Shown here: positions 33,208-38,833 of the stretch, in pieces
Position numbering within the stretch: the first letter of the stretch is position 1
Layout of the letters: every line of letters begins with the position of its first letter
Assembly (NCBI RefSeq): GCF_003131205.1
Contig: NZ_QFFY01000002.1
Location: 457,016-521,015, forward strand
Length of the DNA: 64,000 bases
Origin: Occallatibacter savannae
GTDB taxonomy: Bacteria; Acidobacteriota; Terriglobia; Terriglobales; Acidobacteriaceae
Direction of reading: 5' to 3'
The notes under the pieces: model-generated
The model's input: only the letters and a program-made list of their open reading frames with translations
Told to the model about the DNA's origin: nothing
Database searches by the model: none
Translations under genes and position numbers: made by a program

Positions 33208-35424
33208 CTAGTTGGGTTTTGTTGTCCATTGGTCGACCCAGTCGTTGACCGTTTTCCACCAGAGCTGGGAGTTCTGGGGCTTGAGGACCCAGTGGCCTTC
33301 GTCGGGGAAGTAAAGCATTTTGCTGGGGACGCCGAGGCGCTGGAGGGTGGTGAAGAGCTGATAGCCCTCGCTGACGTCGAGACGGAAGTCGAGCTGGCTA
33401 TGAACGACGAGGGTGGGCGTTTTGAAGGTTTTTGCCGACATCATGGGGGCCCATTTGCGATAGGGATTCTCTGAGTCGGGCTTGCCATAGTAGTCCCACG
33501 GTTTGCCTTTGAACTCCCACTCGTTGAACCAGAGCTCTTCGGTGGTTCCGTAAGCGGACTCGGGATCGAACATGCCGTCGTGGGAGACGATGCACTTGAA
33601 GCGGGTGGTGTGGCCCAGCACCCAGTTGGCCATGTACCCGCCGTAGCTCGCGCCAAGGGCGCACTCGCGGGTCTTGTCGATGAAGGGGTAGTGCTGCTCG
33701 GCGTAGTCGAGGCCGGACATGAGGTCGGTGAAGGGCTTGCCGCCCCAGTCGCCATTGACGCTATCGACGAAGGCCTGACCGTATCCGGTGGAGCCGCCGG
33801 GGTTGATCATGACGACGACATAGCCGTTGGCGGCGAAGAGCTCGGCATTCCAGCGGTAGGACCAGGCGTCGCCCCAGGCACCCTGCGGGCCGCCGTGGAT
33901 GAGGAACTTGAGCGGGTACTTCTTGCTGGGGTCGAAGTTGGGCGGGCGGATGAGGAAGCCCTGTTCTTTGGTGCCGTCGGATGCGGTGAACCAGAAGTCT
34001 TCCATCTCGGAAAGATCGAGGTTAGCGAGTAGGGCGTCGTTGAGGTGAGTGAGCTGTCGAAGTTCTTTTGCCTCTGGCACTGGGTAAACCGGCAATCTTC
34101 CTGCTTGTGCTGCGTTTTCCTTCTTGGTGGGCAGCACATCTACGATTGCTGGCGAATTCACAATCTCGAACACTTCGCTCGGGTGCCCTGCCGTCATGCG
34201 CGTCGCGACAACCGAATTACGAACCGGTGTCGGATGGATACTACTGAACTCTCCCGACCCTTGTTGAAGAGTCACCCAAAGAGCAGCCCGCCCTGTCCTC
34301 AAATCCAATTCATAAACCGGAGCAGAGCCGCGAGAGCCGGAAACGAAATAGATCGTTTCCGAATTCAGTCCCCACGCAAACTCATCCACCCAATTCTCGA
34401 ACTTCGGCAGTAGGTACTTGATCGTCTTCGCCCCGCGGTCATAAAGAGCCAAGCGGAATTTGTCGCTCTCGTAGCCGGCGCGGGCCTGGGAGCGCCATGC
34501 GAGGTATCTGCCGTCGGGGGAGTAGGCGGGATCCATGTCGCCGCCGAGAGCGGTGCTTACCTTGATGGGCTTTGCGTCGGGGCTGGTGAGGTCGAGCGTG
34601 AAGATGTCGGAGTTGGTGCTGGTGGCCTCTTCTGGCACATCCTTCTTCACAAAGGCCATTTCCTTGGCGTCGGGAGAGATGGCGCAGCCGCAGCCAAGGG
34701 GGGACGTCGGATAATCCGTCGGCACATCGTGCGTGTCGTTCGGGGTTAGATCGCGGAGCTTTCCGGTGTCCACCTCGATGAGGAAGAGATGCGAACGTTT
34801 GTCGCCTGTGAAGTGGTTCCAGTGGCGGTACATCAGGTGGGTGAAGATTTGCGCCTTGACCTTGCTCTCGGCCTTCGCCTTGTCGCGATCGGCGTTGCAC
34901 TGGTCGCCGGTTTTGGAATCGGCGAAGGTGATAGGCGCGCAATCGGGATAGACGTTTGAAGTAAAGACGATGAACCTTCCGTCGGGAGACCATTTGGCGT
35001 TGTCGGCTTCGGTCGAGATGGACGTCAGCTTCTTCGCGTTGCTGGTCGCGCCGGTTGCGTCGTCGAAGTCTGCAATCCAGACCTGACTGGCGCCTTCGCG
35101 GCCGCTGACGAAGAGGACGCGCTTGCCGTCCGGAGCAAACTGCAGTCCACCGTCGCCGGGCTGGGTAGCAGAGACTTTCAAAGGCTCGCCACCCGCAATC
35201 GGCTGAAGCCAAATCTCCGGAGTCTTTGTGTTCTTTTCGAGGTCAACTGTTGTGACTGAATAGCCCAGCCACTTTCCGTCGGCAGAGACGGCGGTTTCGC
35301 CCAGACGCTTCATGTGCATCATGTCTTCGAAGGTCATGGGGCGCTTCGGTTGAGCCTGAGTTGTGATGGAAGCTGCAGAGAAGACCGCAAAGAAAAGAAG
35401 AGCAGACGAACCCGATCTACGCAT
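33208..35424 (-). CDS. Secreted S9 family peptidase (DPP4/acylaminoacyl-peptidase type)
   Basis: A 738-residue exported serine peptidase that acts on peptides or N-blocked amino acids. A signal peptide covers about residues 1-24 (ending TTQAQ). The beta-propeller (about 45-440) contains WD40/TolB-type blades, including SADGKWLGYSV and SPDGRYLAWRS. The alpha/beta hydrolase domain (about 480-738) has Ser in GASYGGYMANW, Asp in HSQLDFRLDVSEG and His in DEGHWV, so the triad is complete. Start ATG at 35424 with GAGGGGAAC just upstream. It differs from the S9A enzyme at the window start in having the DPP4-type GxSYGGY motif. Confidence 0.93.
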   Translation of the reverse strand: MRRSGSSALLFFAVFSAASITTQAQPKRPMTFEDMMHMKRLGETAVSADGKWLGYSVTTVDLEKNTKTPEIWLQPIAGGEPLKVSATQPGDGGLQFAPDGKRVLFVSGREGASQVWIADFDDATGATSNAKKLTSISTEADNAKWSPDGRFIVFTSNVYPDCAPITFADSKTGDQCNADRDKAKAESKVKAQIFTHLMYRHWNHFTGDKRSHLFLIEVDTGKLRDLTPNDTHDVPTDYPTSPLGCGCAISPDAKEMAFVKKDVPEEATSTNSDIFTLDLTSPDAKPIKVSTALGGDMDPAYSPDGRYLAWRSQARAGYESDKFRLALYDRGAKTIKYLLPKFENWVDEFAWGLNSETIYFVSGSRGSAPVYELDLRTGRAALWVTLQQGSGEFSSIHPTPVRNSVVATRMTAGHPSEVFEIVNSPAIVDVLPTKKENAAQAGRLPVYPVPEAKELRQLTHLNDALLANLDLSEMEDFWFTASDGTKEQGFLIRPPNFDPSKKYPLKFLIHGGPQGAWGDAWSYRWNAELFAANGYVVVMINPGGSTGYGQAFVDSVNGDWGGKPFTDLMSGLDYAEQHYPFIDKTRECALGASYGGYMANWVLGHTTRFKCIVSHDGMFDPESAYGTTEELWFNEWEFKGKPWDYYGKPDSENPYRKWAPMMSAKTFKTPTLVVHSQLDFRLDVSEGYQLFTTLQRLGVPSKMLYFPDEGHWVLKPQNSQLWWKTVNDWVDQWTTKPN

Positions 35425-35599: not shown

Positions 35600-37630
35600 C
35601 TAGGCGGCCTGGAGTTCGAGGAGGATGCCGGCGCCGCGGGGTTCGAAGTTGAGGGCGCTGGCTTTGCCGTTGTTTTCGCGCAGGATGGATGCGCACATGC
35701 TGAGGCCGAGGCTGGTGGACTCTTCGCCTGTGGGCTCGGGAACGAATGGATCGAAGGCGCGGGCCGGGACGGTGAACTTCGCACCGCTGTGGGCGACAAG
35801 AATCTGGACGTGGCCCTTCTCCGCGACGGCTTCGAGGCGGACAGTCTTTTCCTGCGCGGTGTCGAGCTTCTCGACGGCGTCCATGGCGTACTGGAGGCAG
35901 TAGAGGACCGCCTGCCGGACCTGCTGCGCGTTGCCCAGGATGCGCGGCAGGGCTGGCGCGATCTGCACGCGGAAGTCGATGGAGCGCTGGACGAATTCAG
36001 AGCGATGGAGCTGTTCGAGGTCGCTGAGGAGTTCTGTTACGGAGATCGCGGCCATCTGATCGCCCTGCGGACGCGAGATGCGGGCGAGGCTCTCGAGGGT
36101 CAGGCGCATATGCCGGGCCTCGGTGAGGATGGCTTCGATGGCTTTGTGCGCCTGCGGGTTGAGGTCCTCGGTTTCGTCGAGGAGAGAGGCGTAGCCGAGG
36201 ATGACGGTCAGAGGGTTGTTGAGCTGACGCGTGACATTGCCGGCGAGCTGTCCAAGGCCGACGAACTTCTCGGCGTCGACGAGCTTTTCGAGCATCATGG
36301 TGTGGCTGCGGAGCGCCTGGAGCCGGGTGGCGAGAACTTCCAGCGGGAGCAGATCGACAGCGGTGATGGGATCGTGAGGTTTTTCAAGACCTGCGAGCAA
36401 GATTGCGCCCTCGGTGGAAGTCCTGCCGCGCAAGGGAATCGCCTGCACGGTGGTCAGCTTCAGGCGGGTGAGGTCGTCACCGGGGACGAGGAATGGAGTG
36501 AGATCGAGATCGAAGGTCTGAGCGTGCTCGAGGGTTGGGGTCACGTTCTCCGGATCAAGGAAGCCGCTGACGGGAATGCGGCCTGCAAGCGCTTCGAGGG
36601 CAGTGAGGGTTGCGTCATCAAAGCCGGCGGAGCCTGAGAGGTGATAGCGGCCGGAGCCCTGGAGCAGGATGATGGCGGACTGCTTGAAGCGGCTGTTCTC
36701 GACGATGGACTGGCAGACGGTAGCGGCCTGGCCGTCGAAATCCTCGACGCGGCGGCGTGCCAGGTTGAGGCGCGTGTAGGCCTCCATCTCCTGGCGAGCA
36801 TGGCGTTCCCGTTTCTCTCCCGCCTGGTTGGTCGCGAGTTGATCTTCGAGCGCGATGAGGATCATGCCGATTGCCGCTACGACTTTGGACAGCACGATGA
36901 TTCGTTCTTCGACCAGACCGGGCCGTCCGGCATGGAAGAACCCCAAGTGGAACGGGAGCGCTTCGCCGATGTTCAGGGACCAGCCAATAAAGCCGAGTGC
37001 CGCCAGCAGCGTACCGGCAGAGATGCGCCGGAAAACGTAGAAGACCAGCAGGGCAGTGGTCAGGTGGATCGCGCACTCAACGTAGGTGAGCGGCCACCCT
37101 CCGCCAATTCTGAAGCAGATCCAGAGTCCCACGGCGCCCAGGAGGATGCAGAGGCCGAGGGGCAAGGCTCTTGGAATTCCCCGGTGGGAGATGGCCCATG
37201 CACAGGCCACGAAGAGGGACAGGCCGCCTAAAGCGGGGAAGAGGAGGAAGGTGGTGCCTGAGGGCGTTACGCCTCCATATACGCCGTAGATCAGGAGGGC
37301 GTAGGCGATGAGGGGCAGGATGAAGGGGATGACGTAGAGCACCCGGACCCGCCCGAGTCGGAAGCGCATGGGCGTAAGCGATGCGAGAAAGAAGGCGGAG
37401 CTGATGAGGATGGCGGTCTGGCCGGTCGCCACAATCCAGGGATGTTCTACGGCACTGGTGTAATCCCAGACGCCCAGCTTGTAGTACTGCAGCATGCGGA
37501 GGCAGGCAAACAGGAAGCCGAGGAACCAAAGGAGGGTCCGGGCGTTGCGAAAGCGCAGGTAAAGCTGACAGAAGGCCGGCAGCAGAAGCAGCGTAAGAAC
37601 CAGCGCGGGAAGCTGATAGCTGTCGGGCAT
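35600..37630 (-). CDS. Membrane GAF sensor with degenerate histidine kinase core
   Basis: A 676-residue inner-membrane protein. Seven or so membrane segments (about 8-260) form a 7TM-type sensor, followed by a GAF-like region (about 295-430) and then HisKA and ATPase-like domains (about 450-676). The architecture is that of a hybrid-less histidine kinase, but key residues are changed. The H box reads GQLAGNVTRQLNNPL, with Arg468 where AHELNNPL has its phosphoacceptor His (codon 36229-36227, cgt). The N box is VLYCLQYAMDAV, without the Mg-binding Asn. The G1 box DxGxG is replaced by AHSGAKF. The fold-defining LNNPLTVILGYASLL and LGLSMCASILRENNG remain. It is probably a pseudokinase that binds a partner. 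Start ATG at 37630. Confidence 0.85.
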   Translation of the reverse strand: MPDSYQLPALVLTLLLLPAFCQLYLRFRNARTLLWFLGFLFACLRMLQYYKLGVWDYTSAVEHPWIVATGQTAILISSAFFLASLTPMRFRLGRVRVLYVIPFILPLIAYALLIYGVYGGVTPSGTTFLLFPALGGLSLFVACAWAISHRGIPRALPLGLCILLGAVGLWICFRIGGGWPLTYVECAIHLTTALLVFYVFRRISAGTLLAALGFIGWSLNIGEALPFHLGFFHAGRPGLVEERIIVLSKVVAAIGMILIALEDQLATNQAGEKRERHARQEMEAYTRLNLARRRVEDFDGQAATVCQSIVENSRFKQSAIILLQGSGRYHLSGSAGFDDATLTALEALAGRIPVSGFLDPENVTPTLEHAQTFDLDLTPFLVPGDDLTRLKLTTVQAIPLRGRTSTEGAILLAGLEKPHDPITAVDLLPLEVLATRLQALRSHTMMLEKLVDAEKFVGLGQLAGNVTRQLNNPLTVILGYASLLDETEDLNPQAHKAIEAILTEARHMRLTLESLARISRPQGDQMAAISVTELLSDLEQLHRSEFVQRSIDFRVQIAPALPRILGNAQQVRQAVLYCLQYAMDAVEKLDTAQEKTVRLEAVAEKGHVQILVAHSGAKFTVPARAFDPFVPEPTGEESTSLGLSMCASILRENNGKASALNFEPRGAGILLELQAA

Positions 37631-37906
37631 GATGGTGCGCTTTTCTCCTTGGAAGCGTCCGCGCCCTCTTTGAGGGTCGCGCGCGTCCAGTTCGGGTGTT
37701 GCCGGGGGCAGCTACTGACTTTAATCAGTGAGCTTAAACCATTGATCCCCAACGGTAAATGCTGAGTTTGAGTCTGGCCGGACGCGGACCGATCGTCGAG
37801 GGACGTGGCGGTCCGTGCGCCACCGGCTTCGCCACTGGCGATTTTGCTTGGCACCCGGGCATCCTGTAAATACGTCTAACGTGGTAACAAGAAGAGAGTG
37901 TCCTGA

Positions 37907-38833
37907 ATGCGGACCATGAGGAGTCAAGCAGTGAGAAACCGTTGGTGGCTCATACCAGCCATCGCCACAATGCTGGTGTTGCCCGCAGTCGCGCAGGATA
38001 AGGACACCTTTACCCCGATGCCGCTGGACGCAGGGTTCGGGAAGCTCGACTTGACGCAGCCGTCTACGCCGCCCGAAGAGATCATCAAGAAGTTCGCGGC
38101 CAAGGAGAGCGAGTTCCGGGAAGCATTGAATCACTACACGTACCGCAGAGTGGCGCGGGTGCAGACGCTGGACGATGACAACAAGGTCGATGGCGAGTGG
38201 TACCAGGTTGACGATGTGACGTTTGACCCGACCGGCCGGCGCATGGAGAAGACGGTATATGCGCCGGAGAACACACTGCAACGCGTGACGATGAGCCCTT
38301 CGGATCTTCAGGACATTCAGAAGGGTTATCCGTTTGTTCTGACCACGGAAGAGATCACGCAATACAACGTGAAGTATGTCGGTAAGCAGAAGGTCGATGA
38401 AGTAGATTGCGTGGTTTTCGATGTGTCTCCCAAGCAAATCGAGAAGAACAAGCGGTACTTTCTCGGCCGTATCTGGGTGGATTCCGGCGAGTTGCAGATC
38501 GTGGTCACGAACGGCCGCATGGTTCCCGATGACACGCGCAAGAACAACGAGGACCTTCACCCGCCGTTCATGACCTGGCGCCAACAGGTGGATGGGCACT
38601 ACTGGTTCCCGGTCTACACAAAGGGCGAGGGCGTGCTGCACTTCAAGGGCGGCAGCTACACGATGAGCGAGGACGTGCACATCCGGGACACGATCAAGTA
38701 CACCGACTACAAGCGCTTCGGCTCCACGGTGAAGATCATCTACGACGGGCAGGACATCACCCAGAACGGACAACAGCCCAACCAGCCCGGAGAGCAGAAG
38801 AAACAGCCCGCTCCTGCGAAACCGCAGAAGTAA
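37907..38833 (+). CDS. Secreted hypothetical protein, outer-membrane-lipoprotein-sorting-like
   Basis: A 308-residue exported protein. The ATG at 37907 is used; a GTG at 37931 has a better Shine-Dalgarno (GAGGAG, seven bases upstream) and would give a compact signal peptide, MRNRWWLIPAIATMLVLPAV. The body (about 45-275) is beta-rich, with YTYRRVARVQTLDDDN, DCVVFDVSPKQIEKNKRYF and GRIWVDSGELQIV. This order resembles the LolA/LolB-like half-barrel proteins that handle lipids. The tail is Gln/Pro/Lys-rich. No lipoprotein Cys is seen. It is divergent from the degenerate kinase gene; function unproven. Confidence 0.65.
   Translation: MRTMRSQAVRNRWWLIPAIATMLVLPAVAQDKDTFTPMPLDAGFGKLDLTQPSTPPEEIIKKFAAKESEFREALNHYTYRRVARVQTLDDDNKVDGEWYQVDDVTFDPTGRRMEKTVYAPENTLQRVTMSPSDLQDIQKGYPFVLTTEEITQYNVKYVGKQKVDEVDCVVFDVSPKQIEKNKRYFLGRIWVDSGELQIVVTNGRMVPDDTRKNNEDLHPPFMTWRQQVDGHYWFPVYTKGEGVLHFKGGSYTMSEDVHIRDTIKYTDYKRFGSTVKIIYDGQDITQNGQQPNQPGEQKKQPAPAKPQK

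Follow-up and report, generated by a model that had tools for sequence, protein, structure and literature searches.

An open reading frame on the reverse strand of a 64,000-nucleotide stretch of the Occallatibacter savannae genome (the window) encodes a membrane sensor that has lost the catalytic residues of a histidine kinase. Judged by its sequence and by a structural model, it fits the pseudo-histidine kinase class, in which those residues are gone and the kinase fold is kept. The loss has a single origin on the tree, and purifying selection has acted on the gene. Because the shape of the protein and the surface with which it would grip a partner are almost unchanged, it probably controls a partner, either through binding or by turning it off. 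The particular form of this idea that we favour, and give an even chance of being right, is that of a kinase-dead membrane sensor acting through response-regulator docking, either as a phosphatase or as a sequestering partner. Known pseudo-histidine kinases include DivL, RetS, RocA and a laboratory-selected ChrS variant (PMC7028121, PMC9491836, PMC4211667, PMC5992135). A search of the literature on such kinases and on Acidobacteria with such proteins returned no report of this family.

Domain layout and lost catalytic residues

The features of the gene and its surroundings are collected in Table 1. Pfam recognizes the HisKA domain (PF00512) at residues 460-521 (E 8.1e-11; 42.3 bits, above the cut-off of 26.9), and the HATPase_c match at residues 567-673 (E 2.9e-5) scores 24.9 bits, just under the curated cut-off of 26.4. 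The Pfam scan of the protein found no receiver domain. The AlphaFold2 model has a mean pLDDT of 91.5, but its alignment of 71 sequences (own included) contained intact homologues, and the model alone is therefore no proof that the dead domain folds. It places the membrane helices between residues 6-27 and 205-224 and the linker helix at 236-286. A simple hydropathy scan gives six hydrophobic stretches where the model has about eight helices.

In structure comparisons, which barely cover the membrane module and the GAF-like part, residues 445-676 group with known histidine kinases. The catalytic domain of ThkA aligns with Z 20.9 and rmsd 1.7 over 141 residues, DivL (chain 4q20) with Z 20.9 and rmsd 6.6 over 217 residues and RetS with Z 19.4 and rmsd 5.0 over 206 residues, and many other matches, with Z about equal to those of DivL and RetS, are active kinases. 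The same DivL chain is also matched in sequence (E 3.6e-8), with the match confined to residues 461-666. The membrane module has a paralogue (24% over residues 4-304) in a GGDEF protein encoded elsewhere in the genome (L112:1548-2903; G000:C1:401815-402693), and Pfam scans assign no family to the shared part. The occurrence of the same module on a GGDEF protein in one genome suggests that it has been shuffled between output domains.

In the H box, NVTRQLNNPL, R468 takes the place of the phosphoacceptor His. The N-box region, YCLQYAMDA, contains no Asn and has Y581 where the Asn should be, and in the G1 box, AHSGAKF, H614 stands for the Asp. The G2 stretch, ESTSLGLS, retains LGL, but positions 638 and 640, mostly Gly in intact proteins, are Ser. 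A first-pass annotation had described a membrane sensor with a histidine kinase fold but without the phosphoacceptor His, the N-box Asn and the G1 Asp, and this description is confirmed. The combination is also unusual within the genome. Among its 47 HisKA matches, one of which (L209) had no alignable H region and was not scored there, the His was found absent from the window protein alone, and no other match has lost all three boxes. In L177 and L182, too, the G1 Asp is absent, but the His is present.

Table 1. Features of the pseudo-histidine kinase gene and its neighbours, in window positions
Feature	Position	Strand	Remarks
Pseudo-histidine kinase gene	35600..37630	-	Open reading frame, ATG start, 676 aa; Pfam
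Membrane sensor module, residues 1-286	36773..37630	-	AlphaFold2: about eight predicted transmembrane helices and a long linker helix
GAF-like domain, residues 287-440	36311..36772	-	Predicted topology only; no Pfam match
HisKA (DHp) helical hairpin, residues 441-525 (424-519 in model)	36056..36310	-	PF00512, AlphaFold2, VIA-align
Catalytic (HATPase) domain, residues 526-676 (527-675 in model)	35603..36055	-	Predicted fold kept, ATP site lost
R468, place of phosphoacceptor His	36227..36229	-	Dead-clade rows: Q 37, R 9, H 3, W 2, E 2, T 1 (n = 54)
Q469 (H+1), place of kinase-only Glu	36224..36226	-	Q 48/54, E 4, H 1, K 1
N472 (H+4), phosphatase residue, retained	36215..36217	-	N 48/54, S 5, D 1
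Residues 475-484, most of putative response-regulator docking face	36179..36208	-	Nearly frozen
Degenerate N box YCLQYA, residues 577-582	35885..35902	-	No Asn at 577 or 581 in 54/54
H614, replaced G1 Asp	35789..35791	-	His in 53/54 dead-clade rows; Asp in 39/41 intact rows
LolA-like protein, divergently transcribed	37907..38833	+	Pfam LolA_like below cut-off; adjoins dead and intact lineages
S9 peptidase, downstream	33208..35424	-	Often a conserved neighbour

Single origin at a shared locus

At E 1e-40, 42 of the 59 same-genus genomes have a match to the protein (full-length or partial, the window's own included). At E 1e-30, 79 of the 200 family genomes do, in many cases to the kinase core only. 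The nearest named record is an Acidobacteria metagenome-assembled genome, 86% identical at one locus in the genome-contig search. Of the 103 aligned rows, 41 intact ones (without the g34 rows, L087 and L093) served for comparison. Fifty-four orthologues, 43 from genus g1 and 11 from genus g44, make up what is called here the dead clade. L038, from an Acidobacteria metagenome-assembled genome, is excluded from these counts, as its match appears identical to that of L009. The N-box Asn and the G1 Asp are absent from all 54 orthologues and the His from 51. By comparison, the His at 468 and the Glu that follows it are present in all 41 intact rows, of which 40 have Asn at 581 and 39 have Asp at 614.

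When the motif columns are masked, the 51 dead-clade rows of a 100-row tree form one group (SH-aLRT 100), on a stem of 0.65 changes per column that is placed among intact kinases. The trees were quick ones (LG+G4, SH-aLRT only) and left out the partial sequences L109, L106 and L043; residue changes are parsimony counts. Since the group forms even without the motifs, the loss most likely occurred in the common ancestor of g1 and g44. The first-pass annotation had gone further and counted three independent losses. All of them fall on the one stem branch, so their independence cannot be shown. Its question whether R468 and the altered boxes are conserved among homologues is answered yes for the N box and G1 and no for R468. 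Position 468 drifts: the ancestral residue is Gln by parsimony, with 7 changes, and R, W, E, T and H also occur. Three members (L024, L029 and L096) have His there and neither the N-box Asn nor the G1 Asp. As for the N box, the absence of Asn holds throughout but is specific to the clade at one position only. Asn at 577 is found in 1 of 17 nearer intact rows and in 22 of 24 farther ones, which makes its loss older and leaves 581 as the loss special to the dead clade.

Do the dead proteins replace an intact kinase or accompany it? Gene neighbourhoods were compared over 40 stretches (22 dead, 18 intact), none longer than 20 kb. By automatic listing, 37 of them have the LolA-like gene next to the kinase gene in divergent orientation, sometimes with short called reading frames between; a direct search finds it beside L118 too. 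The S9 peptidase is present in 25 stretches (12 dead, 13 intact), RecX in 21 (12 dead, 9 intact) and alanyl-tRNA synthetase in 18 (10 dead, 8 intact). The window protein is single, with no second full-length copy of the 676-residue protein in its genome. Common neighbours and a single copy indicate that the dead proteins occupy the intact kinase's place and are not extra copies. Indeed, the positional orthologues in other genera (g33, g66, g70 and others) are intact kinases, about 30-36% identical, with the same architecture; they keep the His, the Glu and mostly the N box and the G1 Asp. Two proteins of genus g66 (L050 and L062) have the His, but their G1 box reads NSGPGF, with Asn in place of the Asp; this may be a further lineage in which ATP-site function is being lost. 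A long fused frame at L015 is an artefact produced by a stretch of N in the contig, which connects the kinase gene with the S9 peptidase.

The LolA-like gene is present in 54 of 59 same-genus genomes. A regulator site shared between the divergent genes was searched for and not found. A conserved promoter-like block is seen on the LolA-like side only (about 37840-37880, upstream of that gene); it is conserved in six aligned sequences, and the rest of the intergenic region mostly is not. The Pfam scan of six window neighbours and seven family representatives yielded no response regulator and no partner gene beside the kinase gene.

Putative docking face and phosphatase-type residues

If the protein no longer phosphorylates anything, what might it still do? 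One clue lies in helix alpha-1 of the DHp domain. In DivL of Caulobacter crescentus, contacts with the regulator have been modelled, and partly tested by mutation, at offsets +3, +7, +11, +12 and +15 from the His place (PMC4211667), and titles of structure entries for a rewired HK853 interface add offset +8. The six corresponding positions of the dead clade have a mean of 1.17 changes, versus means of 8.24 across the DHp (p 0.00035) and 4.32 across helix alpha-1 (p 0.011); the positions were picked from the published offsets after the conservation of the helix had been seen, which makes these p-values descriptive. With an earlier set of seven positions the values were p 0.0002 and 0.0042. Residues 475, 476, 479, 480 and 483 have 0, 0, 0, 1 and 3 changes, respectively (DHp mean 8.2).

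Such a set might be equally conserved in any kinase. This was checked, and the effect is less marked in 43 intact rows, where the same positions have a mean of 4.33 changes versus 9.08 for the DHp (p 0.046) and 5.43 for helix alpha-1 (p 0.34). Positions 476, 478 and 484 have 10, 13 and 14 changes in the intact orthologues and 0, 0 and 1 in the dead clade, although part of this contrast is depth, since the intact rows span more genera (all-site mean 13.5 vs 10.7). The frozen docking positions fit a single fixed protein partner, for which a response regulator would be the natural candidate. However, the same helix could instead touch a catalytic domain or another kinase. The DHp helix alpha-1 can also contact the kinase's own catalytic domain, and its conservation is accordingly no proof of regulator binding. 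A comparison of nine alpha-1 positions with the genome's own kinases pointed to no clear partner: the best agrees at 5 of 9 (L189), and three intact orthologues agree at 7 of 9.

DivL is like the window protein in having a kinase fold with the His replaced, and its T557, G561, Y562 and L565 (offsets +7, +11, +12 and +15; PMC4211667) correspond to T475, G479, Y480 and L483. It differs in having a Tyr at the His place, which drifts in the dead clade, and in its PAS domains (PMC4211667). The window protein has a multi-helix membrane module and a GAF-like domain instead, and its G1 Asp has become a near-fixed His.

Another clue is provided by the residues that separate kinase from phosphatase activity. 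For HisKA proteins, the kinase reaction alone is reported to need the Glu that follows the His, and the phosphatase reaction to need Thr or Asn at H+4 (PMC3510030). The Glu is lost in 50 of the 54 dead-clade rows, and N472 conforms to the Thr-or-Asn rule for HisKA transmitter phosphatases. The Asn at H+4 has 3 changes on the tree and is no more conserved than its neighbours. The natural substitutions of the clade resemble engineered ones in CrdS of Myxococcus xanthus, whose E-to-Q (H+1) and H-to-A mutants still dephosphorylate the regulator. CrdS with Gln at H+1 is described as fully competent for dephosphorylation. CrdS without the His keeps most of the activity, with a regulator-phosphate half-life of 2.6 min versus 53.5 unaided and 0.7 for wild type, and an N-to-D change at H+4 abolishes it (PMC3510030). 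The likeness has its bounds, as those mutants carry one change each. Moreover, 6 of the 54 orthologues have Ser or Asp at H+4, and given the effect of N-to-D in CrdS, phosphatase activity is not to be assumed for the whole clade.

RetS of Pseudomonas aeruginosa, too, has an ATPase domain that is degenerate while its DHp is conserved and its H+4 residue is of the phosphatase type, and transmitter phosphatase activity is reported for it (PMC5992135). However, it has receiver domains and an intact HExxT motif (PMC5992135). The window protein has neither the His nor the Glu, and RetS, which keeps both, is thus no precedent for a phosphatase without them. Two further cases bear on such assignments: DivL is described as binding its regulator without phosphatase activity (PMC4211667), and PhyP, once thought to be a phosphatase, proved to be a phosphotransferase (PMC5898713).

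A parallel is found in genus g34. Its 26 loci (L075, L076, L084-L086, L110 and L210-L229; L087, from g64, is left out of the count) come from 28 genomes with a match, less G271 and G274, and there are g34 genomes without a match at E 1e-25. At H+1 they have Ala in 20, Ser in 2 and Glu in 4. The His is kept in 25 (Arg in L227), and Asn is found at H+4 in 23. In most of these proteins the match to the query starts no earlier than about residue 250, and six that were scanned have 0 to 3 hydrophobic stretches versus 6 in the window protein. The LolA-like neighbour is present in all 12 g34 stretches and in the one g64 stretch; of these 13, 11 have RecX, 9 the S9 peptidase and 3 alanyl-tRNA synthetase. 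On the tree g34 stands apart from g1 and g44, with intact kinases between. By sequence, then, g34 appears to have lost the H+1 Glu separately, as a second, independent case. By analogy with CrdS, its proteins with Ala or Ser at H+1 should have no kinase activity and should retain phosphatase activity.

How, then, might the window protein work? An intact sensor kinase at the same locus would be the ancestor, and autophosphorylation would have been lost once, before g1 and g44 split. Helix alpha-1 of the DHp would still dock a response regulator and lower its output, by dephosphorylation (N472 being kept) or by holding the regulator. The membrane and GAF-like modules would gate the docking, and the dead catalytic domain would be kept as a structural or allosteric arm.

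The strongest alternative, to which we give roughly half the credence of this model, is one that the first-pass annotation had also suggested: the protein would be a heterodimer or scaffold partner of an active kinase, in the manner of RetS-GacS, DivL-CckA or RocA-CovS, and would pass on its sensory input through the partner's activity. Such action on a partner kinase is reported for known pseudo-histidine kinases (PMC7028121, PMC9491836, PMC5992135). One of them, RocA of group A Streptococcus, is by description like the window protein a membrane-spanning pseudokinase related to sensor kinases, but acts through the kinase CovS (PMC7028121). The DHp is among the most conserved parts of the window protein, RetS and DivL are among the structural neighbours of the model (beside many active kinases), and the genome has 46 other HisKA matches that could supply a partner. 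However, none of its kinases is close (the best reaches 29% over the kinase core), so a partner would be a distant one, and none was seen encoded beside the gene in the neighbours scanned. The frozen positions, moreover, include the regulator contacts described for DivL and HK853. The conserved surface would seem to point at least as much to a response regulator as to a kinase partner. It is mainly because of the g34 parallel that a regulator-directed function is preferred over a purely kinase-directed one.

Rebuilt active site and selection after catalytic loss

The old active site has not simply eroded. H614 has one change in 51 rows versus a mean of 10.7 per site. A647 (for Tyr) is found in 53 of 54 rows with one change on the tree, Q580 in 51 of 54 with two, and an aromatic residue at 581 in 52 of 54. 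With position 468 drifting and H614, A647 and Q580 near-fixed, the phosphoacceptor site appears to have been set free and part of the nucleotide site rebuilt. What if the catalytic domain now binds a ligand other than ATP through H614, Q580 and the aromatic at 581, which would make the protein a two-input ligand sensor? The near-fixation of these residues and of A647, and the single change at H614 and at A647, would suit such a pocket. However, bulky aromatics where the N-box Asn should be, with glycines 618, 638 and 640 partly lost in the dead clade, would rather fill or close it, and we consider a ligand site improbable.

The remaining question is whether the gene is under selection at all. 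Of 14 dead-clade pairs, 12 gave a finite dS; in these dN/dS is 0.045-0.162 over the whole gene and 0.027-0.211 in the catalytic domain, and 7 of 8 intact pairs give 0.076-0.282; many dS values exceed 0.5, so these figures are rough. Within g1 (38 rows) mean identity is 65% in the dead catalytic domain versus 52% in the membrane module. These patterns indicate that purifying selection acted after the catalytic loss. The earlier suggestion that the protein is a selected pseudokinase, not a product of random decay, is supported by the 54 orthologues in one clade, the low dN/dS and the near-fixed G1 replacement. Close homologues with intact boxes and a high dN/dS in this copy, which would have spoken for decay, were not found: the intact orthologues belong to other genera at the distance given above, and dN/dS is low.

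Conservation does not mean that the gene is indispensable. No match at E 1e-40 is found in 17 of 59 same-genus genomes, which counts against essentiality. Some of the 17 are incomplete, and 6 belong to the 32 better-quality genomes. Eleven stretches with the LolA-like gene contain no remnant of the kinase gene, though some contigs end too soon upstream for a verdict. In a quick LolA-like protein tree the presence of the kinase gene changes 6 times, 4 of these changes being forced by well-supported branches. The gene is conserved where present and has probably been lost several times. Slow decay of a dispensable gene, its function lost piecewise, would accommodate the genomes without a match and the stretches without a remnant. 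It is already largely refuted, and as the main account rejected, by the low dN/dS, by the near-fixed new residues at the old active site and by the lack of internal stops in 44 listed same-genus matches; we regard it as very unlikely. Least likely of all is a phosphotransferase like PhyT, with a dead ATPase domain and a phospho-shuttling His, since the three members with His at 468 are scattered among His-less relatives and look like later changes, and the other 51, the window protein included, lack it.

A broader scenario, which we hold only tentatively and consider doubtful as a whole, is that a single orthologous sensor kinase has on at least two occasions, through different residue changes, become a dedicated kinase-off regulator acting on its response regulator. 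The route in g1 and g44 would have been loss of the His, the Glu, the N box and the G1 Asp, with a rebuilt site, and that in g34 loss of the Glu as the sole one of these, along with most of the membrane module. If true, the locus would offer a natural evolutionary series from a bifunctional kinase to a stand-alone sensory phosphatase or regulator sink. To our knowledge few pseudo-histidine kinases have been studied, and for most of them the route from a working kinase is unclear. Here related genera carry intact, half-disabled and fully dead forms at one locus, which would allow the steps to be put in order and tested with natural proteins.
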